A DNA stretch of 64,000 bases from Telmatactis stephensoni. Its lineage: Eukaryota; Cnidaria; Anthozoa; Actiniaria; Isophelliidae. Position 1 is the stretch's first letter. Each line of letters opens with the position of its first letter. A model generated the notes under the pieces. That model saw only the letters and a program-made list of their open reading frames with translations. It was not told where the DNA came from and made no database searches. The stretch covers positions 124,001 through 188,000 of the forward strand of contig JALIZF010001407.1 in the NCBI GenBank assembly GCA_029948255.1, read 5' to 3'. Positions 7,051 to 56,500 of the stretch are shown here, in pieces. The position numbers and the translations under genes are program-made.

Positions 7051-10000
7051 TTATGACATTGAATGTCCACTATTTGATGCTTCATGTTTCTGGATAATTT
7101 TCTTTAGTTCATCCAGTCTTTCTTGTACCACAGCAGTTCTAGTGCATGAAAGTTCAAAATCCTAAAACAAAAATTACAAATTGGTTTACAAATCACATTC
7201 AAAAGTTATGGATTATACATGTATATGAAAATCAAATGTGTATCGATATCATAGTTCAAGAAAACATCTCTACCCCACCACAGGGGGAATTTGTGCATGG
7301 GCTCCACTACCCCCTGGAACTTTCAATTTTTTCCCCTACAAACTCTTAATTTTGTTCTTTCTAAGATCCAGAATTTCCAATTCCCTCCATGGTAGTATAC
7401 AGATATTTTCTGGGATTTATATACAATCAAAATTCTTGCCTTTTCAACACCATATGTTGACCCTTCATGGGGTTGTCCTGTAGCAACTTGGGTTAAATAA
7501 CTTATTTGTTCTGACAAACCTTTTTCAACTACCTAGACATAAATAAGTGTTAATCTCTGCATGCACATACAAGGGGGGACATCCTCCAGAACCCAGGAGT
7601 AACATTTTGTTGCTTGTTTCTCGCTCCCAGAAAAATTATCCCTAGGAACATACTGTAGTCTGTTAGAACTTGTTCCGGAAATTGGAATTCATCTCTTTTC
7701 TGATTGGTAAGCCCCAGTGGATTGACCAATCAGATTGGTTGAATTCTTTGAAAGCTGCCCTTCCGAAACAAGTTCAAACAGATGTGCTCAGAGGTAATTT
7801 CTCTGGGATCAGTGAGAAACAAGCGACAGAATATTACTCCTGGGTTCCCGAGGATGAAGGGAACATTGCAGGGACTTGAAGTGCAATTTCCCTTAAAAAG
7901 TGTACTGGATAAAATTGTTAAGTGGAGACAATCTTTCCCTAAAACAAGTCCCATTGATTTACACTGGTTTGATTTTGTTGGTGGCAATTCCATCCAAATA
8001 TTTGTTGTTCCATTGTGTGCATTGTTTGTGGAACCTGTCTCCACTACAAAATAAAATGCAATCTCCCCCTCCCCAAATAAAATAAAAAGAAAAGAAAAGA
8101 AAGGGGAAAAAAGAAAAAAAATGTTACTCCTTAACTTCTGTATTGGAAACTTGCACACACAAATACTGCGCGTTTCGGTTGAGTGTGGAGGCGCTAGAGT
8201 TTTATCGATTAGTTATTCAAATCAAAATAATAAAGTGTGACGTCATAACTTAATGTTGTCAAGGCGAGTCTGAACGTTGTCAAGGGAGTGCACGTGCGTA
8301 GTACAAAATATAGAAGGCTGGTTTTGACCAATCACGAATAAGTTAGGCAATGTAGCTTTCCCGCCTTTAGCTGTGTTGTTTTTCAACGACAAGTAGTAAT
8401 GGCGGATTTTCAAGTCAAAGTAGAGTATCGAATGGACAAATTTGTCACTTTCTTCGTCGAAGTATGCCGTGTTTATGCAGGGGAATATTCACTCATTGAT
8501 TTGTGTACAGATATTATTCAAAGGTGTCCGAGTTTGAGCCATTTAAGTGCAGGAAACTTACGCATTCGCTACGAAGATGATGAAGGTTCGTATATAAATC
8601 TTGAACTGGGAGACCCAAAGGTGTTTACTGAGATGTGGGAGAATGCTAAAGAAGTACCAGGTCGTGAATACAGAAGAGTAAAGCTAAAAGCAAGTGAGAT
8701 TAATTCACCATGTCCAAATGCTCTTGATCGTGAGAATATTGCCGAAAAAACAAGCAAGACAAGACAAGACACGCCTCGTCCGCCATCGCGACGAAGACTG
8801 CCTGTAGTAGGATATGATAGCAGCTCAAACTACGACTCTGATTTCCCGATGACTTCTACTATTACTACTAACGATAAAGCTGAGAGTCAATGTGATGATT
8901 CCTTGAGCACACCGTTAGAAAGATTATTTAAGAACATCGAGAAAGAAATAGAATCAGTTAGCAATGAAATAGTATCAAAGAAGACGCAACTCGACAGACT
9001 TACCTACGAAGTTGAATCTGCTCGTATTGTCAATGAGAACAAAAGTAATCTTGTTGTATGTGGACAGTGCCACTTACGAGAGGGGCACACAAAAAGAAAT
9101 TGTACGTTAGGCATATGCACCTCAGCAAAATCTTGTGGAATGCTAGATAAACATCCAGTTGAAAAGGGACTAAAACGAAAGCTAGAGAGCGAAATTTCTG
9201 CTTTGCAGAATAAGCTCGTAAAGTCTCAGGATAATTATCAGAAGAAAAAAGTCGCATATACTAAAGTTAACAACACCTTTGCCAGTAAAGTAGAGGACGA
9301 GTTAATTGCAAGTAATCCAAGTCTATACGTACAAAATAACTGTAAAAACTGGTTGACAATCAACAAACATGTAGCTATATTGGAAAAAAAATGTGGGGGT
9401 CGAAAGATACCAAGACGTACAGAAATTCCACAACTTTTGAAAGAGGCAGAATTAAATCTACCTGATACATCTACTGCGAATATCAAGCCGAGACAAGCAT
9501 CATCCAACCAAGCGAAGTCAGAATTAGAATCCCGCGGTATTATATTTCCTTCATGTGAGCAGCAACGTAAACCGTCGTCTTTGCTAATGCGATGCGCACC
9601 CCAAACTGCTGAAGAGGAGAAATCACAAATGGAAATGATGATTAAACAAAGTTTGTTGGAGTCGAATGAGATGAATAGCTCTCAACAAGTCCCCCCATGC
9701 CCTGCAGTACCACCGGTATTTGGTTATCCCTTCCTCCAGCCTCTCTATCCTGTAGACGTACCTCACCTACCTACTGCAGTTGGAAGTTCAACATCTTTAT
9801 ACGAGATGCCCAACATCGATTCTCATGATGTTGTGGCGGATGTGGCGGACAATAAAGGCGAGGAAACTGATGCCGCGCATTCACTGTTAGCTTTAAAAGC
9901 CGCTCGTAGGGATAACTAATTTCCTTGTTTACTCTGAGCACATAAAATATGATAAATGCTACAGCGCTTGCTGAAAAACACTGATTGAAATTTTTGAAAT

Positions 10001-12433
10001 CTTGTTTAATAACTACCGTTGACTTTATTACTAATACAACAGTCAAGTTCAGTCAAAACTCATGTAATTACAAGTATTGTAATGTACAAATTCTGAGACT
10101 GATTACTGTCATGTTGAGTTTTCTATTTACAAATCTAATTAGTTTTCATGAAATACAACATTTCTCTTCTATAATAATTAGTTTATATATATATTTTTTT
10201 CATTTGATCTTTCTATCCATGATTGGACGTTCACAGTACTATTTTATACCGAAGGAAACGCGACGTAAACATTGTTGGTTTTGTAAATCTTGTAAACATT
10301 ATTCAGCGTGCGAACTTGTGTGACATATGACATGCATTTCCTTAGTTCATTAGCCTGCGAAGCGCGACAGAAAAAAAAATATACGAAAACTTATCAAATT
10401 TTGGTTTCATATCAGCATTCGATTTTTGATTTGTAGAGATAAATAACTGAAGCTGGACACAAATGAATTGCACGAATATGTCACACGGGTAATTACACAG
10501 ATTGTTATCATGTTGAGTTTAAATATAATTGTTATGGACTGATGATCGAACTACAACTACAACATCTCTAGCTTACAGCATAAGTATACAAATAAGTATA
10601 CAAATATTATATAACAAAAGCTATTTTGATTTGATATTAGACATTCATACGTATTGCTATTTTATACCGAATAAACATGCAGTATTAAAGAAACTAATTG
10701 AAACTGTCTTTGTCTTCTAAACCTGTCTTTATCAAAACAGTAATCAAACATTTATGTACGAGGTCGCACGGTAATACCCTGCCATATCATTACCATCTAT
10801 TAAGTCAAGGGCTAGATATGCGGCGAGCTTCAAGTTGTAGTTAGCGATGTCTTGCAAGTTGTATTTCAAGGAGTATTTCAGCTTAGAAAAAAGAAACTCA
10901 ACTACATTTAAATCGGGGGAATACGTTGGGGTGTAGACCAGTTCCATTCCCAATCCTTCCAATACTGCATCCAAAGCATCACCTCCATCATAAAGATGAA
11001 TAGGGCAATTGTCCATGATAATAGTGTCTCCAACTTGAAGAGCTGGCCTTCCAGTCACTATATCTGAAGCTTGAAGTGCTTCTTCGAAAAATTTCAGGAA
11101 AGTCACTGTGTCAGAAGCCCCGTCGATGATATTGGCATACGTAACTCCTTCCAATCCTGCTAGCACATTCAATGTAATGTTCGGATTGTCATGATAACGC
11201 TGTATCTGTACGCACCTCTCTCCCTTTGGTGCTGACCCGTAAGTTCGCTTGCAACTTTCGACAAGTTTTAGACCCGTTTCATCAAAAAACTTTAGTTTAT
11301 GAGGGTCTTTAGTGTGAATATAATTTATGAAGAGCTGGGTGTAAATCATGTTTACCTCGGTAAATCGTTCTATTGCTAATCCAGTAATCTTTTTTCGAGT
11401 GTATTCCAACCCGGAAACCATTCGTTTGTGTAAAGCTTTTGACAAGGCTGATTTGGATGTCCCGCCAAAAATGTCGCCGTAGCGCTCGAGCTCTTGCAGT
11501 AGTTCTTTTTGAGAAATGCTGGGATCAGACCTCACCAGTGTTTCTATCAAGAGTAAATCCCCCTGGCTGAAATGGCTTGGATTTCCACCTCCACGAGATC
11601 GCGGTTGTACTGTTCCACTTTCACAGTAAGTCTTCCAAATCTTTGAGACTGTCGATGGACTAAGTTTATACTTGTCAGCGACGTGTGCGAAACTGTTAGG
11701 GAAATAAGTCGTTGCAACATCTCCACCATTGTGAATGATTTCATCTATTACTAGAGTTTTTAATTCACTACTTAATGCCACTCCTCTTTTATACATCCGT
11801 CCTTTCTTATTTAAGATTTCCATGACTCCACTCTGGAACAGTATAAGTCGCGTACTCGAAACAATAAGCGCGCTATTCACTTGACAAGCGTTTGTACTTG
11901 ACAACATTCAGACTCGCCTTGACAACATTAAGTTATGACGTCACACTTTATTATTTTGATTTGACTAACTAATCGATAAAACTCTAGCGCCTCCACACTC
12001 AACCGAAACACGCAGTAGAAACAGTCATGGTTGGAGTTTGAAATTGTTGTAGACATATAAGAGAATGTATGATATCCAGCTTGCATGTAATAGATGATCC
12101 ATATCCCTACCTCTAATGATTTGACAAATTGGGCTGCCTTTGCATTCACAACATCGTCTGACGGGGATTCCTTGGACAGTTCAGACAAAGTCTCTCCGGC
12201 ACTTTTTAAAACAGTTACAATTTCCTACAAATAAAACCACAGTCACATGTTGATAAAGCAACAAGATATATTTATGCTCTCTTTATAGCACCCAATTTGT
12301 TCGGTTTTCCAATAAAAACTGTAAAATGAGTACGTAGTTCAATGCATGGAAAACTTCACAAAAACATGTTTTTAACGGGACTTACACGTTCAATATCTTC
12401 TAGACGCTTTAATCTATCTCTTGACTGTGACAT
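7051..12433 (-). CDS. MED11: Mediator complex subunit 11
   Basis: Four coding exons on the minus strand: 12386-12433, 12111-12224, 7440-7532 and 7051-7161, all in phase 0, 366 bases, 121 aa (human 117 aa). MED11 is a small coiled-coil subunit that pairs with MED22 in the Mediator head and contacts RNA polymerase II and TFIIH. The hallmark [16 protein letters not shown] is at residues 64-79, and [10 protein letters not shown] opens the protein. The first in-context ATG (12616, GCGGAC...) belongs elsewhere or meets a stop, so the start at 12431-12433 is chosen. The intron after exon 3 uses a GC donor (AAG then GCAAGA). The 4.6-kb second intron carries a whole two-gene transposon (8166-12015) and a MITE; the other introns are short. 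Confidence 0.95.
7580..7856. mobile_element. MITE in MED11 intron 2
   Basis: The left end CATCCTCCAGAACCCAGGAG and the right end CTCCTGGGTTCCCGAGGATG are inverted copies. The pairing continues inward (TAACATTTTGTTGCTTGTTTC against GAAACAAGCGACAGAATATTA). About 277 bases, non-coding. Confidence 0.75.
8166..8285 (+). repeat. Left terminal inverted repeat of transposon
   Basis: About 120 bases pairing with 11896-12015. It holds a palindromic CRE-like TGACGTCA at 8238-8245 and GTTGTCAAG words near 8255-8283 that could be transposase sites. The accessory gene begins 113 bases further in, so this repeat is likely to be its promoter. Confidence 0.9.
8399..9919 (+). CDS. Transposon accessory protein, PB1-like with Cys/His cluster
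   Basis: A 506-residue open frame inside the transposon with no recognised host counterpart. Residues about 3-97 look like a PB1 interaction domain: a basic, aliphatic first strand ([16 protein letters not shown]), a later acidic OPCA-like stretch ([14 protein letters not shown] at 55-68) and a closing RRVKLKAS. Residues 100-165 are polar linker. Residues about 172-215 and 255-290 are heptad-like, probably coiled coil. Between them is a Cys/His cluster, C221-x2-C224-x5-H230-x4-C235 then C240, C246, H252, close to but not identical with a retroviral-type zinc knuckle (one residue longer). The tail is proline-rich (about 435-465). A role in self-assembly or nucleic acid binding during transposition is inference only. 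The ATG at 8399 is the first and gives the complete PB1-like fold. Confidence 0.85.
   Translation: MADFQVKVEYRMDKFVTFFVEVCRVYAGEYSLIDLCTDIIQRCPSLSHLSAGNLRIRYEDDEGSYINLELGDPKVFTEMWENAKEVPGREYRRVKLKASEINSPCPNALDRENIAEKTSKTRQDTPRPPSRRRLPVVGYDSSSNYDSDFPMTSTITTNDKAESQCDDSLSTPLERLFKNIEKEIESVSNEIVSKKTQLDRLTYEVESARIVNENKSNLVVCGQCHLREGHTKRNCTLGICTSAKSCGMLDKHPVEKGLKRKLESEISALQNKLVKSQDNYQKKKVAYTKVNNTFASKVEDELIASNPSLYVQNNCKNWLTINKHVAILEKKCGGRKIPRRTEIPQLLKEAELNLPDTSTANIKPRQASSNQAKSELESRGIIFPSCEQQRKPSSLLMRCAPQTAEEEKSQMEMMIKQSLLESNEMNSSQQVPPCPAVPPVFGYPFLQPLYPVDVPHLPTAVGSSTSLYEMPNIDSHDVVADVADNKGEETDAAHSLLALKAARRDN
9920..10743. other. Spacer between convergent transposon genes
   Basis: About 820 AT-rich bases between the two stop codons, with only short chance frames. 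It presumably contains the 3' UTRs of both genes. Confidence 0.5.
10744..11823 (-). CDS. DD37E transposase (IS630/Tc1/mariner superfamily)
   Basis: Uninterrupted minus-strand gene. Start at 11821-11823 ([14 protein letters not shown]) gives 359 aa, the usual size; an in-frame upstream ATG at 11905-11907 would add 28 residues and lies inside the TIR. The N-terminal part has a helix-turn-helix, [20 protein letters not shown], with a GRPR-like basic segment after it (VQPRSRGGG). The DDE catalytic domain is complete. Numbering from the upstream Met, D209 is in [11 protein letters not shown]299 in IIMDNCPIH and E337 in [12 protein letters not shown]. There are 37 residues between the second Asp and the Glu, so it is of DD37E type. 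It cuts and pastes DNA at TA sites in the nucleus. No stop or frameshift is seen, so it may be functional. Confidence 0.95.
   Translation of the reverse strand: MEILNKKGRMYKRGVALSSELKTLVIDEIIHNGGDVATTYFPNSFAHVADKYKLSPSTVSKIWKTYCESGTVQPRSRGGGNPSHFSQGDLLLIETLVRSDPSISQKELLQELERYGDIFGGTSKSALSKALHKRMVSGLEYTRKKITGLAIERFTEVNMIYTQLFINYIHTKDPHKLKFFDETGLKLVESCKRTYGSAPKGERCVQIQRYHDNPNITLNVLAGLEGVTYANIIDGASDTVTFLKFFEEALQASDIVTGRPALQVGDTIIMDNCPIHLYDGGDALDAVLEGLGMELVYTPTYSPDLNVVEFLFSKLKYSLKYNLQDIANYNLKLAAYLALDLIDGNDMAGYYRATSYINV
11896..12015 (-). repeat. Right terminal inverted repeat of transposon
   Basis: Inverted copy of 8166-8285 with a few differences (for example GTTAGTCAAATC against GTTATTCAAATC). 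CRE-like TGACGTCA is at 11936-11943. It abuts and partly includes the 5' end of the transposase frame. Confidence 0.9.
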
Positions 12434-27514: not shown

Positions 27515-30302
27515 ATGGAAAAACAAAAAGATTGGAAATGCAATCAAAAGTCCACATTTGTTGTTCTTCTCGAATCCAATAACCAAGGCACCCTTGACAG
27601 TAAGGTCTCCTGGTTTGTTTGCTTGTGTTCTTCCCTGTCTAACGTCATAATTCTGGGATGTCTCTTCTGTTATGCTGTTTTATTTCCAAAGTTACTGGAG
27701 GAATTCCACGAAGGAAAAGCAAAAACAGGTACCTCGCTGTGTCGACCTCTTTTATAACCGCGCGCGTTTCACAGGGAAAGAATGTCAATTCCCATTGAGG
27801 GGGAGAGGGCGTTCCCTACCTTCCATTCCCTAACTCCTCTTAACCTGCGTAGAGGCTCTAAAAGGGGAATTGAAGGGGGGAGGGGGAGTTCCCTCTCTCC
27901 TTCCTCTCCCCACTCCCTCTCTCCATTCCCTTCTAGGGCGGCTCCGCAGGCTAGGTCCCCTCCTCCTTCCCCAAAGGGAACTATGGCCAACTAAGAACAT
28001 GTTATTTTTTCCTGCAGCATTGGTAGCCTCAGTAGGGCTGAGTGTCTACTGTTTTCTTTCACCTGCGTCAGCGAAACTCTGCATTCGTTTTGGATGTAGG
28101 GTGGTCATGGTTGGCAGTGGATTGATATGCTCACTAGGACTTCTCGGGTCGTCGTTTGCTGCAAATATTTACTATCTTTACTTCTCGTATGGTGTTGTGC
28201 TTGGATTCGCATCGTCAATGGTGTACAACGCAGGGTTTCAAGTTATTCCATTGTATTTTGACAAACATCGCTCTCTTGCCACGGCCATGGTATCATCGGG
28301 GCCAGGGACTGGTGTGCTTCTGATGAGCCCTGTTACGCAAATGCTTTTGCAACGTTTTGATTGGAGGAAAACTTTGACAGTTCTGGGATCAATCAATATG
28401 ATTCCCACGATCCTAGGATGGAGTATTACTAGGAAGGACAGACAAGAAAAACCATTAAAATCAAGTGAATCTTCAAATAATTGTTGCTGCAGTTTAATGG
28501 ACTTGTCGGTATTTAAAGATCCTATGTTTTTGATCCTTTCCTTTTCAATGGTTGTTGCTGTCTTGGGTCACTACATGCCACCGATGCACTTGGTAATAAT
28601 TCGTCTGTATTTCTATTTTCATCAATTATATTTCGACTTGTCTCCAATGAACCTTTGTTTAATCTTGTCATTCAACGAGAGAACCTCACGAGTCTTGTCA
28701 CGCAACGAGAGGGCCTCGCGTGATCTGCCCATGAGTCTAAACACTGCTTCCCACAAAACTGAATTTCAAAGCACGTCTCATCCGTAAAGAACAAAGGGTT
28801 GCTAAGCGCCGGTCTGTCACCTCTGTCGGCCCGATCTCGGGCTCAATTCCCGTACGGAGCAACGCATGTGATTTAAGCTTGTCAGTTCTCTCCCTTGCTA
28901 TAGCTTCAAATTACATATGCTATTCCACATTCTTTTTCCAGCCAAATTTTGTTGTTGTTACTTTTTCCAGGCCAAATACGCTGAAGATGTTGGAATCCCA
29001 AGCCATCTAGCATCATGGATGTACATCACCATTGGCAGCACTTCACTAATCTCCAGACTTCTGATAGGAAAATTGTGCGACAGTGGGTGGATTCCACTAG
29101 TACGCATCTTTCAATGTGGAACTCTTATTTTGGCCATCGCGAACTATTGTCTCCCTTTAGCCAACAACTTGTCATTACTTTTAATGTATTCTGTATCACT
29201 TGGGGTTGGTGAAAGTGTGTACACAACACCAATGTACTGCTTAATTCTCCAGTCTTATGGTGGTATGGGTTTTGGATGGTTCGTCTTCGTTAATATGATT
29301 CCACTTTTTATGGGGCCAACTCTTGCTGGTAAGTTCCTTCGTTGGGTTTGGTGTTCGGGTACTGCGCAGTATTCACTGATTGTCGATAGTCATTTCGATC
29401 TTTTTCTTCGATGTGAGCGAATCCAAGCGCGCGGATCTTGATATTTTTACCGTTGATATTTCAATCAATAATGCCCATTTCCAAAATTTACAAATAGATT
29501 AAATTTTTCCATGTGCCTGTTCTTTAAAAGATGCATGCACAAGTGACATCAAAATGTGGTGAGAACAAAAAAGTAGTTTTATTCACGCCACATTTTGACG
29601 TCTTATGTCATCTAAAGAGTAGACACACGGAAAAATGAAATCTATTCAATTTATATATAATTTGCCGAAACATTTCAACCAATCAGAGCGCGCGTAAGAT
29701 TCAATGACGTCGTCTATGAATATACTTTATTATAAAATATTTAAAATATAACGCGCGCGCTGATTGGCTGGGTATCATGTCTATATCAGAGGACAGAGAT
29801 ATGGCTCACTCAAATAACGTCTAAAATATTTTATAAAAGCAATATATAATGATCGCTTATGTCTCTGTACTGTGATAAAAGCACTCTGGAAGATGTAGAG
29901 CACTCGAAAAGGAAGAGAAATACTCGGCTACGCCTCGTGTTCTTAAGCTTTTCTCTTGCTCTACATCTTCCATCGTGTTTATATCACAGTACAGAGACAT
30001 GCGCTCGCATTTTGTATTAATTCCTTAAATAACACAGGGTTCTTGACCAATCATTGCGCACGTAATATACCAAATATTATATAACCCTTGATTAACTTAG
30101 TTTTATCAACTCCACAGGTTTTATTGCTGATGTTAGTGGTTCGTATCATCCTGCTTTCTACACTGCTGGTATCATCATGACATTGTCAGCTTGTATAGTT
30201 GAATTATCAAACTGCATCAAACCAAAAACTAAAGCAAAAAAACAATTTTATATCGGACGACAAGAATTAGTTGTAGTGCTAGAAAGAGAAACTGTCATCT
30301 AG
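27515..30302 (+). CDS. SLC16/monocarboxylate-transporter-like protein, copy A1
   Basis: Exons 27515-27728, 28018-28592, 28971-29328 and 30118-30302, all GT/AG, phases 1/0/1, 1332 bases, 443 aa. A 12-TM major facilitator: exon 1 carries TM1 and exon 4 TM12. Family signs are the TM1 region ending CYAVLFPKLLEEF (the Lys matching the MCT1 TM1 lysine), YFDKHRSLATAMVSSGPGTG (the loop and TM5 motif YFxKRRxLAxG) and SWMYITIGSTSLISRLLIGK in TM8. The usual TM1 motif DGGWGW is replaced by DSKVSW. The TM8 Asp that pairs with Arg in MCT1 is Ser here, so proton-lactate cotransport is doubtful and the substrate is unknown. The C-terminus RETVI fits a class I PDZ ligand. An in-frame upstream ATG at 27479 would add 12 residues. 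Confidence 0.9.
29640..30000. mobile_element. MITE pieces in intron 3 of A1
   Basis: ACCAATCAGAGCGCGCGTAA and GCGCGCGCTGATTGGCTGG form one inverted pair (about 29680-29770). A second inverted pair, CTGTGATAAAAGCACTCTGG and CGTGTTTATATCACAG, spans about 29870-29990. The matching intron of A2 (56540-56830) has both, but the left arm of the second is shortened. Confidence 0.65.
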
Positions 30303-34695: not shown

Positions 34696-37600
34696 ATGTC
34701 AGTTCTTCTGGATGTGAAGATGGACAAAGAAAGCGAGAGAGAGTTGGATCCTCTGGGGTTACATGATAGTGACTCCATGGATACTAAAGTGTCCTGGTTT
34801 GTTTGTGCATGCTCAACTTTGTCCAACGTGATTATTCTCGGATGTCTGTACTCTTATGGCATCATATTTCCAAAGATACTGGCTGAATTTCAAGAAGGAA
34901 AGGCTAAAACAGGTGATACATGCATGCACTGCTGATTTTAAACTGTGTCTGTGTTCCATAAATGAGCAGTTCCATTTCTACAATGTGTGATGTGTCTGCT
35001 TCGGTGTCTTTTAGTTCAGATGCAAATTTATCTATAAATAAAATAACTATGATAATATGTGAACTAATATGTGCACTAATATTTATTTATTTATTTATTT
35101 ATCTATTTGTTTGTTTATTATATTAATTTATTTGTTTATTTATTTATTTGTTTGTTTGTTTGTTTATTTATTTGTTTATTAATTAATTTATTTGTTTGTT
35201 TGTTTGTTTGTTTGTTTATTCAAATTTTGTTATTACAAAATCCAACTCAGCATGAAAATGGACTCCAAAAAAAGCATAGTGAAGCCCGGCAGTGTGTGTA
35301 CGTTTTGTCTTAAAAATTGCAGAAAAAAATGCAGTATTTTTCCTAATACTATAAGAATGTCTTGTAAATTATTTACTTACAGTATTCATATTTTGCTATA
35401 TCTTTTTGCAATTATTTATACTTATATGTAACAGGCCGCTGATCATACCCTTTGCGTTTTGCCGTAATGGCGTTGCAAAATAAGTAGATGTAGCTGTAAA
35501 GGTGTTGTTACGCTGAAACTTTTCTCTGAAACTTGTGTCAATCGTCGTTGAGAGACGAGTTTCACAACGCACTGCATCAAGTAACATGGTCATTTAGCTG
35601 AATTAAAACTTTCCTCGGGTCGGTTTCACGAAAAGTAGAACTGCTTTCTAATTCTGCAACAGAAACGAGTGTCGCGAACAAGTTTCAAGACGAAATTTCA
35701 GCGTGTAAAAGAGATCTGATCTGCCGGTCACAGCGCCTTAAACTAGCTGTTATCGGCAGACTAAGTAAAGACGCATGTGACGCATGCTCTGTGGGTGCAT
35801 AACAAATAAAAGACTTCGGCAGAGCAATGTTGAATTAAAGTTGGACTTTAGAGCTAACCGCACTCGAATGGACAAATAAAGAAAGAAAGCAAAAAATTAA
35901 GAAAACTGATCAAAGAATTTAGATATAACGGATGAATATTTTCTGTTTTAACAGCAATGGTGGCATCGTTAGGCTTGTCCCTCTTCTTATTCCTGTGTCC
36001 TGTCGCGGCGAAGTTGTCCTTGCGCTTTGGCAGCAGGGTAGTCATGGTTGGTAGTGGACTCACATCCGCACTGGGTCTTCTAGGATCGTCGTTCGCGCCA
36101 AAATTGTACGTTCTTTACGTGTCATTCGGTGTTATGGTGGGAACTGCATCTTCTTTAGTCTTCATGGCAGCCTTTCAAATCATTCCATTGTACTTTGATA
36201 AACATAGAGACCTCGCCACATCTATAGCAGCGCTGGGACCTGGTGCTGGTGTCCTGGTGATGAGTTCTGTTATACAAACACTTTTGAAGCAATTTGATTG
36301 GAGGAAAACATTCCTCGTTTTAGCTGGCATTAATTTGTTACCCAGCTTGCTGGGCTGCAGCTTAACGAGAAAGAACAATCAGACTGTGAACGACAACAAA
36401 GAAACACCAGTGAGATCACACGAACCTTCTAAAGGCGGATGCTGTAGACTTCTACGACTGTTGGATTTCTCTGTATTCAAAGATCCTGTTTTTGTATTAG
36501 TGTCATTATCAGGTGCAATGACTTATCTAGGAATAACTATTCCTTACGTCCATCTAGTAAGTGCTTCACTTTCTCACTATTAGACACTCATCCTCACATT
36601 TAGCTAAATGTGTTATAAATGAACAGTGGGGGCTATAACTGTGTAGCATGGTTGGCCCAGCGGTGCATGAAAGCGCTGACCATTCGATTCACCACGGTGG
36701 TTCGGGTTCAAGTCCCAGTTCCGTCGATCGATGGATCATATGTGAACTGAGTTTGTTTGATGTGTTCTCTACCATGTTACGGCTACGAGGGTTATTTTGT
36801 CCTGGTTCTCCCCGTTTTTACTAGCTCCCTATAGCTAAAAACACTAAAATCACTGCAACGTGTGAGTTGAGCATATATTGTATGTAAAAAATAGTAGGTA
36901 GTGAGTGCCGGCAGAAGAACAACCATTACGTGGATCAATTGAAAAGTTTTGATATGGTCATTTCATTTATTTATTGATGTTCTAGTTATCGGCGCGAAGT
37001 AGCCTAAAGGAAAGGGTATCTTGAGAAAAAATTAAAAGGAGAACGAAGACAAATTTGTTTTCAAAAATTACATGGGGTATTATTTATACTTTGTGATATG
37101 TGAGTATATTAAGGAGTCTAGATCATCAGTAAAACATAAAGCATTGATTCGCAAGATTTAAGCCGAAGCTCGAAGCATCGTCATTTCATTTTTTTCCTTT
37201 ACATTTCACAAGATTACATAAATTTAGTACTTATATATTTTGTACTTTGGTTTTTCAAAGGCAAAACACGCTTTGGAAATTGGTGTTCCAGATCATTCAT
37301 CTTCCTGGCTAATTTTTACTATTGGTCTTTCCTCAATGGTTGCTAGGATATTATCTGGAATGTTGTTAAACACTGGATGGATCTCATATTTGCGTTTCTA
37401 CCAGATTGTAATGTTGATGTTGGCATTAGATAGCTTTTTGGCTCCAGTAGCAACCACCTTTACTTCTCTTATTGCATACTCCGTAGCGTTTGGCGTTTGT
37501 GACGGCATGCACGCAGTGCCGCTCATTTGTATGGTGTTGAATTCGCATGGTTCGTCTGGATTGGGATGGCTCTTCTTTTTTCAAGGATTCAGTTGTTTTG

Positions 37601-40600
37601 TTAGTCCAGTGCTTGCTGGTGAGTCATCGTTGTATATAATTTTAGATTATTTTTATTGTAAATTATATCTAACTGTGTGTGTGTTGAGTGAATGTGAAAA
37701 TAATTGGAAGATTGTCAGTACATGCATGTATGTATCTTGGTGAAATGAAACATTTTGTCGGACCAGACAGTTGGTTTCTTGATCGAAGTTTCCAATCTTT
37801 ACATCGTATAGAATTATTGCAGGCATGCTGCTACTGATAACCTTATGGTTGTCGTCTGTTGATGGCAGTACGTGGTGTCACAATATTGTGGTGTGTTGTT
37901 TGTTTTTGCTTTGGGAAACTGCTAGAGGAAGTAAAACAGATAAACCATTAGGCTTTATTGACCGATTCGAAATATGGCGGCAAATTTGAATAACTATTGT
38001 TCTGGACTGACTAGCCTCGTGTTCACGTGGAAACACAAAAGCGTTTTCACATAAATGAGAGGCTAGTCAGTATAAAACAATAGTGATTCAAATTTGCCGC
38101 CATATTTCGAATCGGTGTATGGGGTTCAGTAATTATTATCGAATTTAGTGAGGTCCGAATTTCTTTATATTTAAGAGACGAATCAGAATTGACCATATAG
38201 ACGAATCATTTGTACTAAACGAATGACTCGCCTTAAGGTAATGCGCTCGCGCATTCGTGCGCATAACGTTTGCGCATGTTTTGCACGCGCGCGCTGATAT
38301 CGAATTTGATTGGGCTTCCTGTGTTCTAAAATATTTCAATATGGCGGACGCCACGTAACTGAATTCAAAGCCTTGTAACTTAAAATCTAGCACCGCGACC
38401 TATCCTAATCTTTTGCTTTTTCGACGTATTTTTATAAAAACTAAAACATATCAAAAAAGGAAAAAAATTCCTCGATAGGTTTTTGAGAAAATCGCGAAAA
38501 ATCGTCAAAATGAACGTCCGATTCGCGCGTAAGTACACCTGATTTTCATCTTTCAATTGCGAATACTCAGCTTTACCTACAAATAAGTGAAGACGTATTA
38601 CTTTTCATGATACTTTGTCTACTTTAGCATGTCTGAAAGCCTTTAGTTTGCAAATTTGCAAAGACTTACCGTACGCTAGAGGTCAGACTCTGAAATCTGT
38701 TGTTTTCGTTCGAAAAGGCGAGATTTCGCTCTTTTCGAGCTATCATAGCACCAAAACTAGCACCGTGACCCCCTACACGATGGTCGGTTGCTAGGGCTTT
38801 TCCTCCCGCAAGGTTCTTAAATTCAATTTTTGTCTCACAGAGGAGTAATTTATTTTCCAAATGAAGCAAAATATTAGAACATGTTCATAAGAAAGAAAAT
38901 CCTTAATTTGTCTACAATTGTAAAGGTATTTTGGAAGTTTTTTAAATTATGACGTCATAAATGATACCTATTTTTAGTAACAACATCAAAAACTTGTTAA
39001 GCAATGTTCAAATCTTTACAGACATTTTTGCTACTCAAAAAGAACGTTTATAGTGAAAACCCCATCTCAATCAGATTAAAGGGTACGAAGTTACAGCTAA
39101 TGAAAGAAATTCAAATTTCCCGCCAAATGACCATATATGGTCAAAATTAAGGCTATTTAAACGCCAATACAATGAATGTATTGGCACAGCGGCAAACACA
39201 AAGTTGCATAAAATCAAAATTGTAGTTTTTTCAATTTGGGATGTGTGGTGTTATGGCGCGTTTTCGTCACAAAAAACGTCATTATGACGTGCTAATGACG
39301 TATCTTATGACGAAAACGCGTCATAACACCACACATCTCAAATTGAAAAAACTACAATTTTGATTTTATGCAACTTTGTGTTTGCCGCTGTGCCAATACA
39401 TTCATTGTATTGGCGTTTAAATAGCCTTAATTTTGACCATATATGGTCATTTGGCGGGAAATTTGAATTTCTTTCATTAGCTGTAACTTCGCACCCTTTA
39501 ATCTGATTGAGATGGGTTTTCACCAGAAATCATAGAATTCTATAGAAAAAACTAATATGGTTATTTTACTATTTCTTTCCTAAATTTTTTTTCTGATGCC
39601 AAATTTGGACATCATTAATGACGTCACAATAGCGGTCTAATGAGATGTAATTGCCATCAATTAACAGGTAATTTATCAACCTACTTCCCAGCCACGTTTT
39701 GTCAAATTTGATGCATTCTACTTTTGTCTAAGGCCTAGAACTCTCAGTTTCGAGGCTTCCGGGAGGAAAAGCCCTAGCAACCGACCATCGTGCTATTTTC
39801 TTTATTGATTTGATGTTCCCAACTCAAAAACAATCTACATAATGATTTATAGAAAAATTCGTCGATAAAAACTCGCGCGAGCCCATTACCTTAAATGAAT
39901 ATAAATTCGGACAAGAAACGAATAAAGTTGACCGTATCCATCTAACTATTTCCGGTCTCAAAACATGCCCAAAAGACGGGTTTTTAACGAGTTACCCGTC
40001 AAGAGCAGATATAACAGTCAAAACAAAACAAAACAAACTAACCTTTCTCTGAATTTGCATTAGTACGGATAATCTGGACGATCAATTGATCTCTGGCGGA
40101 CATTGTACATGTGTCACCCCATGTAAGGGAATCCGGAATCCACGAAAAATCCGGAATCTAGCACTTGGAATCCGGAATCCACGAAAATTTTGATTTTGGA
40201 ATCCGGAATCTAACACTTGGAATCCGGAATCCAGTCCTTCGAATCCGGAATCCAGTCCTTCGAATCCAGCCCTTGGAATCCAGAATCTGGCCATTTCAGT
40301 CTATAAGACAGCTCTAGGAACCCGGGATCCAGTCCTTGGAATCCAGAATCTGGCCATTTAAATCCATAAGACAGCTCTAGGAATCCGGGATCCAGTCCTT
40401 GGAATCTGGCCATTTAAATCCATGCATAACACAGCTCTATAGGAATCCGGAATCTTACATCATTCCGGAATCCCTCACATGGGGCGAATTGTAGAATGGA
40501 GTATCACTGAAAGGCTTATACACAGAAATGTAATTTGAAATATTTATGTTGTTATTTATGAACCGAATAACCGTTGACGCCTTCGTCCACTGGTTCTACG

Positions 40601-53564: not shown

Positions 53565-56500
53565 ATGGAAAAACAAAAAGATTTGACATGCAATCAAAAG
53601 TCCACATTTGTTGTTCTCCTCGAATCCAATAACCAAGGCACCCTTGACAGTAAGGTCTCCTGGTTTGTTTGCTTGTGTTCTTCCCTGTCTAACGTCATCA
53701 TTTTGGGATGTTTGTTCTGTTATGCTGTTTTATTTCCAAAGATACTGGAGGAATTCCACGAAGGAAAAGCAAAAACAGGTACTTTTCTTTTATAACCGGG
53801 TTTCACAGGGAAAAATGTCAATTCCCAAATAGGGGTTTGCCTGGGTCTGTAAAACTGGGAATCCGTTCTATTTTACTTGGGACTAAATCTGTAATACCCA
53901 AACTTGTAAAATAGAACAAGGCCTATTCCGGGCCCTAAAATCACCTAAAATTGCCTAAAATCGCCCAAAATCGCTCTAAATCGCCTTAAGTTTTGAGCAT
54001 CTTTGGGGATAATTTTGCTTAAATCGCCTAAGATCGCCTACAATCGCCCAAAATTACGGCGATTTTAGGGCCCGGAGTAGGCGCCTATTCGAAATTCCGG
54101 GCCCTATAACTGCCCAAAATCGCCTAAATTGATTTTAGGGCCCGGAGTAGGCCTAGAACAGATTCCCAGGGATTCCCCAGTTAGCTAGACCCAGGGAAGC
54201 TCCATGTTTGACCCAAGCTGGGAATTAACGTTTCTTTCCTGTGTTTATACTTCGATTGGTCAATATCGCGAAAAGTATTATCATTTCTAAATAAGTATGA
54301 GCGAGTAACCAATAGTTCTTAAAATGGCTCTTTAATGATAATACCGTAAAACGTACCAATAAACAAACAAACAAACAAGCTAGAAAATGTGCGCGCACAA
54401 CTTGTTTTGTTTTGTTTTGTTTTTGAGGGGGAGGGGACGTTCCCTACATTCCCTTCCCTGACCCTCCTTAGCCTGCGTCGTGGCCCTAAAAGGAAAAAGG
54501 AAGGGAGAGTGCCGTCTCTCATTCCTCTCCCCCTTCCCTTTTTGGGGCCGCTACGCAGGTTAGTTCCTCTCCTCCTTCCCCAAAGGGAACTATGGCCAAC
54601 TAAGAACACTGATGTTATTTTTCCTGCAGCTTTGGTAGCCTCAATAGGGCTGAGTGTCTACTGTTTTCTATCACCTGCGTCAGCGAAACTCTGCATTCGT
54701 TTTGGATGTAGGGTGGTCATGGTTGGCAGTGGATTGATATGCTCACTAGGACTTCTCGGGTCGTCATTTGCTGCAAATATTTACAATCTTTACTTCTCGT
54801 ATGGCGTTGTGCTTGGATTCGCATCGTCAATGGTGTACAACGCAGGGTTTCAAGTTATTCCATTGTATTTTGACAAACATCGCTCTCTTGCCACGGCCAT
54901 GGTATCATCGGGGCCAGGGACTGGTGTGCTTCTGATGAGCCCTGTAACGCAAATGCTTTTGCAACGTTTTGATTGGAGGAAAACTTTGACAGTACTGGGA
55001 TCAATCAATATGATTCCCACGATCCTAGGATGGAGTATTACCAGGAAAAACAGACAAGAAAAACCATTAAAATCAACTCAGTCTTCAAATAATGGTTGCT
55101 GTAGTTTAATGGACTTGTCAGTATTTAAAGATCCTATGTTTTTGATCCTTTCCTTTTCAATGGTTGTTGCTGTCTTGGGTCACTACATGCCACCGATGCA
55201 CTTGGTAATAATTCGCCTGTATTTCTATTTTCATCAATTATATTTCGACTTGTCTCCAATGAACCTTTGTTTAATCTTGTCATTCAACGAGAGAACCTCA
55301 CGAGTCTTGTCACGCAACGAGAGGGCCTCACGTGATCTGCCCATGAGTCTAAACACTGCTTCCCATAAAACTGATTTCAAAACACGTCTCATCTGTAGAG
55401 AACAAAGGGTTGCTAAGCGCCGGTCTGTCACTTCTGTCGGCCCGATCTCCGGTTCTCCCGTACGGAGCAACGCATGTTATTTAAGCTTGTCAGTTCTCTT
55501 TCTTTGCTATAGCTTCGAGGGTTTTTTCCGGGTCCGATCTTCCGTTTTTCCAGCCTCGCAGCATCTATTTCTATTACTGTTTATTTATCAATTGCAGCTG
55601 AATAGTAATTGACTTCCCATAATGTATCTTTAAGTTGTCTATCACTTATCTCTTCCTTTTCTTCTACTCCATGTGTCCACAATGGCCGGCATAGCTCAAT
55701 CTCCTTCCCTTATTGCTTCCTCTTCCGTTTTGCTCTCTCATTATGTGCGTCGCCCCCAAGTTACTGAAAGGATTACATATGAGTGTCTAACTTAGCTATT
55801 CCACCTTCTTTTTCAAATTTTTTTGTTGTTACTTTTTCCAGGCCAAATACGCTGAAGATGTTGGAATCCCAAGCCATCTAGCATCATGGATGTACATCAC
55901 CATTGGCAGCACTTCACTAACCTCCAGACTTCTGATAGGAAAATTGTGTGACAGTGGGTGGATTCCACTAGTACGTATCTTTCAATGTGGAGCTCTTATT
56001 TTGGCCATCGCGAACTATTGTCTCCCTTTAGCCAACAACTTGACATTACTTTTAATGTATTCTGTATCACTTGGGGTTGGTGAAAGTGTGTACACAACAC
56101 CAATGTACTGCTTAATTCTCCAGTCTTATGGTGGTATGGGTTTTGGATGGTTCGTCTTCGTTAATATGATTCCACTTTTTATGGGACCAACTCTTGCTGG
56201 TAAGTTCCTTCGTTGGGTTTGGTGTTCGGGTACTGCGCAGTATTCACTGATTGTCGATAGTCATTTCGATCTTTTTCTTCGATGTGAACGAATCCAAGCG
56301 CGCGGATCTTGATATTTTTACCGATGATATTTCAATCAGTAATGCCCATTTCCAAAATTTACAAATAGATTACATTTTTCCATGTGCCTGTTCTTTAAAA
56401 GATGCACAAATGACATCAAAATGTGGTGAGAACAAAAAAGTAGTTTAATTCACGGCACATTTTGACGTCTTTTGTCATCTATAGAGTAGACACACAGAAA

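Follow-up and report, generated by a model that had tools for sequence, protein, structure and literature searches.

The transposases of the Tc1/mariner superfamily are generally regarded as self-sufficient, and they are used for gene delivery for that reason. The window that we analyzed, a stretch of 64,000 nucleotides of the Telmatactis stephensoni assembly (G000, C540:124001-188000), contains an element of this type that carries a second intact gene. This raises the question of whether the second gene is a passenger or a standard part of the element and, in the latter case, what it might do.

Structure and mobility of the element

We identified a complete two-gene IS630/Tc1/mariner-type element of 3850 bp at positions 8166..12015. 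The first-pass annotation had described it as cleanly flanked by TA, bounded by terminal inverted repeats (TIRs) of about 120 bp, and holding an intact DD37E transposase together with an intact, convergent gene of 506 aa; this description was confirmed. The TA target-site duplications are located at 8164..8165 and 12016..12017. The left TIR (8166..8284, + strand) and the right TIR (11897..12015, - strand) form, with the TA included, arms of 121 nt (8164-8284 and 11897-12017) that are 98% complementary, so that the element reads TA-CTGCG...CGCAG-TA at its termini. The accessory gene (8399..9919, + strand; 506 aa) and the transposase ORF (10744..11907, - strand; 387 aa) are arranged tail to tail, and a spacer of 824 bp (9920..10743) separates the two stop codons. 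The transposase probably starts at the ATG in position 11823, which would yield a protein of 359 aa, because the alignment of its relatives begins at the position matching M29. Elements of this superfamily usually, although not by definition, carry a single transposase ORF in about 1.3 kb, whereas the window element presents two ORFs in 3850 bp. The sequence TGACGTCA was found close to each terminus of the window element (within the TIRs) and of a relative on C432 (just inside its 82-bp arms), a placement compatible with promoters at the ends of these elements.

The transposase presents a DDE_3 match (E = 1.8e-18) in which the catalytic D, D and E are all present, with a spacing of 37 from the second Asp to the Glu. 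Both the DDE_3-type catalytic domain and the DD37E triad, which falls within the DD(34-41)E/D range, are those expected of IS630/Tc1/mariner, as are the TIRs with TA target-site duplication. The paired-like bipartite HTH of the superfamily is also present: the transposase profile matched Pax structures (E = 8e-7) across both halves of the DNA-binding region, and several relatives contain the Pfam PAX domain. The match to Sleeping Beauty was weak (E = 2.1e-4) and covered the catalytic part. A transposase origin has been proposed for the paired domain, and the Pax matches are possibly useful in this respect. Among the 84 relatives of the transposase, five have named hosts, Montipora, Dendronephthya (twice), Actinia and Paramuricea, all of which we take to be anthozoans, so that a cnidarian distribution of the family is plausible; only distant relatives were found in viral contigs and prokaryote genomes.

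A second copy of the element was found on C293, where our search of the genome returned a 100% accessory match and a transposase match. It differs from the window copy by one substitution across 3850 aligned bases and by an 87-bp insert, and the flanks of the two copies are unrelated. Near-identity combined with unrelated flanks points to recent transposition, not to an allele or an assembly duplicate. Recent activity, which had been put forward as one option for the maintenance of both genes, is supported by this copy. The 87-bp insert itself, which lies within the right TIR of the element on C293 (L112/L082) and is missing from the window copy, contains a long internal inverted repeat and looks like a small foldback insertion; no other copy of its repeat was found in the window.

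Recurrence of the gene pair across the genome

We searched the Telmatactis stephensoni assembly (483.5 Mb, 1782 contigs) with both proteins of the window element. Only the best candidates are scored in these searches, and the numbers of matches are therefore lower bounds. The accessory yielded at least 88 matches and the transposase at least 108, which merged into 77 and 98 loci, respectively, and 59 of the 98 transposase loci were located within 6 kb of an accessory (0.19 expected). A second accessory query, taken from C68, yielded at least 108 matches, many of which adjoin transposases that had previously seemed accessory-free. When both accessory queries were combined (118 loci), 79 of the 98 transposase loci presented an accessory within 7 kb (0.33 expected). 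The majority of these pairs are convergent (61), 16 have the transposase followed by the accessory on the same strand and two have the accessory followed by the transposase on the same strand. As the two genes are found together in dozens of divergent family members throughout the genome, the accessory seems to be a regular component of the lineage and not a passenger. Two findings had been named as speaking against such a reading, namely copies of the family lacking the accessory throughout and a captured host gene present in this copy only; instead, the accessory accompanies the transposase at these 79 loci and recurs at many places in the genome.

No accessory was detected within 7 kb of the other 19 transposase loci; five have one 7.6-13 kb away (C595, C608, C570, C96 and C713) and several others are short or contain stops. 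Intact full-length transposase frames without an accessory within 7 kb were observed on C126, where there is none on the contig, and on C713, where the nearest is 13 kb away. Reciprocally, 40 of the 118 accessory loci had no transposase match within 7 kb. Four of these were read further: those on C635 and C60 adjoin a transposase that the first query had missed (on C60, partly inside the stretch), and no transposase was found within the stretches read for those on C713 and C608.

Inverted repeats enclose both genes in each of the 12 loci initially read from end to end, and they were also found at C205, C625, C650, C180, C68, C50b and C211. Co-occurrence of the pair between matching TIRs, proposed in the first-pass annotation as a check across several loci, was thereby found in many loci of this genome. 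TA was present on both sides in 19 of the 20 tabulated elements, window included, with C777 as the exception, and the cores of these 19 begin with CTGCG, CTACG, CTACC, CTATG, CTGTG, CAGCG, CAGTG or CAGTC. TIRs were not found at C1010, C713 and C608, nor within the stretches read at C527, C570, C336, C346 and C255, and C701 presented just a 22-nt pair (86%). Repeated TIR words common to subfamilies did not rise above shuffles, and no shared motif was found as a common binding site. On C169, a transposase-then-accessory element (L135/L133; G000:C169:411500-418400) is surrounded by a 1.6-kb perfect inverted repeat, for which reason its ends were left out of the tabulation; a second element with the same gene order lies about 10 kb from the first.

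As a control, we conducted a DDE_3 family search of the genome and scored the best 150 of 536 candidates. Seventy of these hits fell within the 98 loci, 59 of them with an accessory within 7 kb, against only 2 of the remaining 80 (P = 1e-27; Fisher test). The latter two (C830 and C1044) each have, at a distance of about 3.2 kb, an accessory fragment that equals in length and match range the fragments next to C278 and C825, and they may represent fragments of the in-group. Among the 14 accessory-bearing transposases compared, eight present a DD37E triad and six a DD38E triad; DD34E was found in seven sampled from the 80 other hits and in three bacterial IS630-like sequences, which were drawn from another set of 80 loci. 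The accessory-bearing transposases split from the rest in a FastTree phylogeny (support 0.89), within which the DD38E branch is supported at 0.999. The C68 transposase has N in place of D in the first catalytic column, either a genuine substitution or possibly an artifact of the alignment. The seven control stretches yielded no TIR pair, and their single-gene layout is therefore presumptive. A search of the genome with PF01359 (mariner) gave no match, but its control also matched nowhere, making this search uninformative.

Domains of the accessory protein

In the constant core of the accessory, a putative CCHC-type zinc knuckle is joined by a second Cys/His site and by coiled coils. Most members have a PB1 domain at the N-terminus, which is replaced by a SAM domain in two separate lineages. 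In the window protein, the PB1-fold domain covers approximately residues 1-103 and the conserved Cys/His module extends from C221 to H252; coiled coils, disordered stretches and a C-terminal AAxxLLxLK-like motif are also present. The spacing of the knuckle is CX2CX5HX4C in the window protein and CX2CX4HX4C in the C68 accessory, where zf-CCHC scores 19.2, just under the cut-off of 20.8.

The PB1-like character claimed for this protein is supported by its PB1-type beta-grasp fold; its Pfam PB1 score is 12.9 bits, below the cut-off of 23.6, which is passed by two relatives (C777, 30.7; C482, 26.8). SAM is above the Pfam cut-off in C660 (SAM_1, 24.2 vs. 23) and in C68 (SAM_2, 21.4 vs. 20.5). The beta-1 lysine is present in all ten PB1-type representatives, including the window protein, and is replaced in the database relatives P0011 and P0012. 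On the acidic face, D-x-D/E was observed in seven of the ten, and the full D-x-D/E-x-D/E in only three, which distinguishes the accessories from the PB1 domains of p62, NBR1 and Par6; the window protein is not among these three and has two of the three acids of the OPCA core. These PB1 and SAM proteins share the domain types of the accessories but are host proteins. The accessible text of PMC7051960 defines the acidic OPCA core and, with that of PMC7614096, describes PB1 domains, and likewise SAM domains, as interacting head-to-tail.

Further accessory relatives, beyond those from our search of the genome, are present in the protein database, and none was found in the viral contigs or prokaryote genomes searched. 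The window accessory had no sequence match among solved structures, and nothing was found in a viral fold library at E = 0.001 or better. At one locus (L145/L139; G000:C527:173800-181000), the accessory seems split over separate open stretches, with the zinc module apart from the C-terminal module, which suggests introns in some members of the family.

Selection and co-inheritance

We compared both genes between subfamilies (11 pairs) and the upper bound of pN/pS was below 1 in 22 of 22 tests (largest, 0.86), with dS saturated in 21 of them and with alignments trimmed to columns of local identity ≥0.25, a procedure that biases towards constraint. Within subfamilies, neutrality was excluded in 2 of 18 dN/dS tests, both on the accessory (C432 or C61 vs. 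C306; ratios of 0.16 and 0.12); the other comparisons were too close or ambiguous, several of them near or above 1. The expectation that both genes would show ratios below 1 therefore holds between subfamilies but, within subfamilies, for these two tests only. The trees of the accessory and of the transposase are congruent over 17 gene pairs, some with partial frames (Mantel r = 0.68; P = 0.0001).

Comparison with known elements

Two-gene DNA transposons and multi-ORF Tc1/mariner elements of ciliates are already known. The premise that Tc1/mariner elements normally carry one gene is correct for the usual case but is not universal: in the text available from PMC7325037, the ciliate TBE and Tec elements also belong to IS630/Tc1/mariner and carry extra ORFs, one of which, in TBE, encodes a zinc finger protein. 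These elements differ by their DD34E triad, three ORFs and ciliate hosts, and the TBE protein is likened to the accessory by description. The DD37E families (TRT, L18, Mosquito/MS and L31) share the triad, the TA target and TIRs with the window element. According to the available portion of PMC10379824, L18 and MS have been reported in cnidarians, and MS measures about 1.3 kb and has a single ORF of about 340 aa, in contrast to the two ORFs and 3850 bp observed here. L31, a minor DD37E family placed beside ciliate Tec in the consulted part of PMC7325037, has the triad of the window transposase, and both L31 and L18 were compared with the window element by triad and published description.

The closest parallel outside the superfamily is Harbinger, which also has two genes with congruent trees; its second protein binds the TIRs, acts with the transposase and aids its nuclear import, as described in the accessible sections of PMC9179366. 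Harbinger differs by its superfamily and by a Myb/SANT-like domain in place of PB1/SAM and the zinc knuckle. We found no description of a conserved PB1/SAM zinc-knuckle partner in such a Tc1/mariner clade in a literature search largely without subscription papers. If an old and diverse lineage retains a second protein, the view of Tc1/mariner elements as one-gene transposons would have to be revised for a portion of the superfamily.

Proposed role of the accessory

We favor, with moderate confidence, the interpretation that the accessory is a transposition cofactor assembling on the nucleic acid of the element, and that the window element belongs to an old two-gene lineage and has moved recently. 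The suggestion of a cofactor made in the first-pass annotation is thereby supported. By analogy with the second protein of Harbinger, we propose an assembling, nucleic-acid-binding cofactor. The transposase is expected to bind the TIRs through its paired-like region and to cut and paste at TA. The zinc knuckle and the second Cys/His site of the accessory, presumably binding metal, would attach to the DNA (or RNA) of the element, and the PB1 domain (elsewhere SAM) and coiled coils would polymerize the protein head-to-tail. The resulting nucleoprotein assembly would contact and gather the transposase, would help pair both element ends and may be required for transposition. With the convergent layout, each TIR could serve as the promoter of one gene.

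The exchange of PB1 and SAM while the zinc core was kept points to assembly as the function that has been conserved. A comparable design, with an assembly domain, a coiled coil and a zinc knuckle, is found in the Gag and ORF1p proteins of retroelements. More tentatively, and with considerable doubt, this Tc1/mariner lineage might depend on a self-encoded polymerizing nucleoprotein scaffold in which PB1 was exchanged for SAM at least twice, the zinc core and transposase staying together, and head-to-tail assembly is what selection retained; if true, this would be a principle new to cut-and-paste transposons. With its near-identical recent copies, the lineage lends itself to direct tests of how transposon ends could be organized by an assembling cofactor.

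Alternatively, the accessory could shield the element from its host, by anti-silencing or by packaging element DNA or RNA, without any part in the transposition reaction. We consider this unlikely, but the same recurrent pairing and constraint fit it, the anti-silencing factors of plant DNA transposons provide a precedent, and the combination of zinc knuckle, assembly domain and coiled coil would be suited to nucleic-acid packaging. Harbinger, as the closest worked-out two-gene case, argues for a cofactor in the text available (PMC9179366); nothing that we found separates the two possibilities. It is less probable still that the accessory is a self-regulator, acting as a repressor or in copy-number control. 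An oligomerizing DNA-binding partner can inhibit, and few full-length intact elements per subfamily are present among the matches listed, whose numbers are lower bounds, but a positive role would more readily account for its retention across the greater part of such a deeply diverged clade. Finally, a captured host gene or chance neighbor that hitch-hikes with the element is very improbable and strongly disfavored: PB1 and SAM occur in host proteins as well and the 40 accessory loci without a nearby transposase match would fit, but the pairing greatly exceeds the chance expectation and is specific to a single transposase group, the accessory sits inside the TIRs, the trees are congruent, and two of the four such loci that were read further (C635 and C60) proved to have a missed transposase alongside.

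Apart from the element, the window contains three transporter-like stretches on the + strand (27834-29441, 35936-37743 and 54350-56312), two of them near-identical in translation, which likely reflects duplication.
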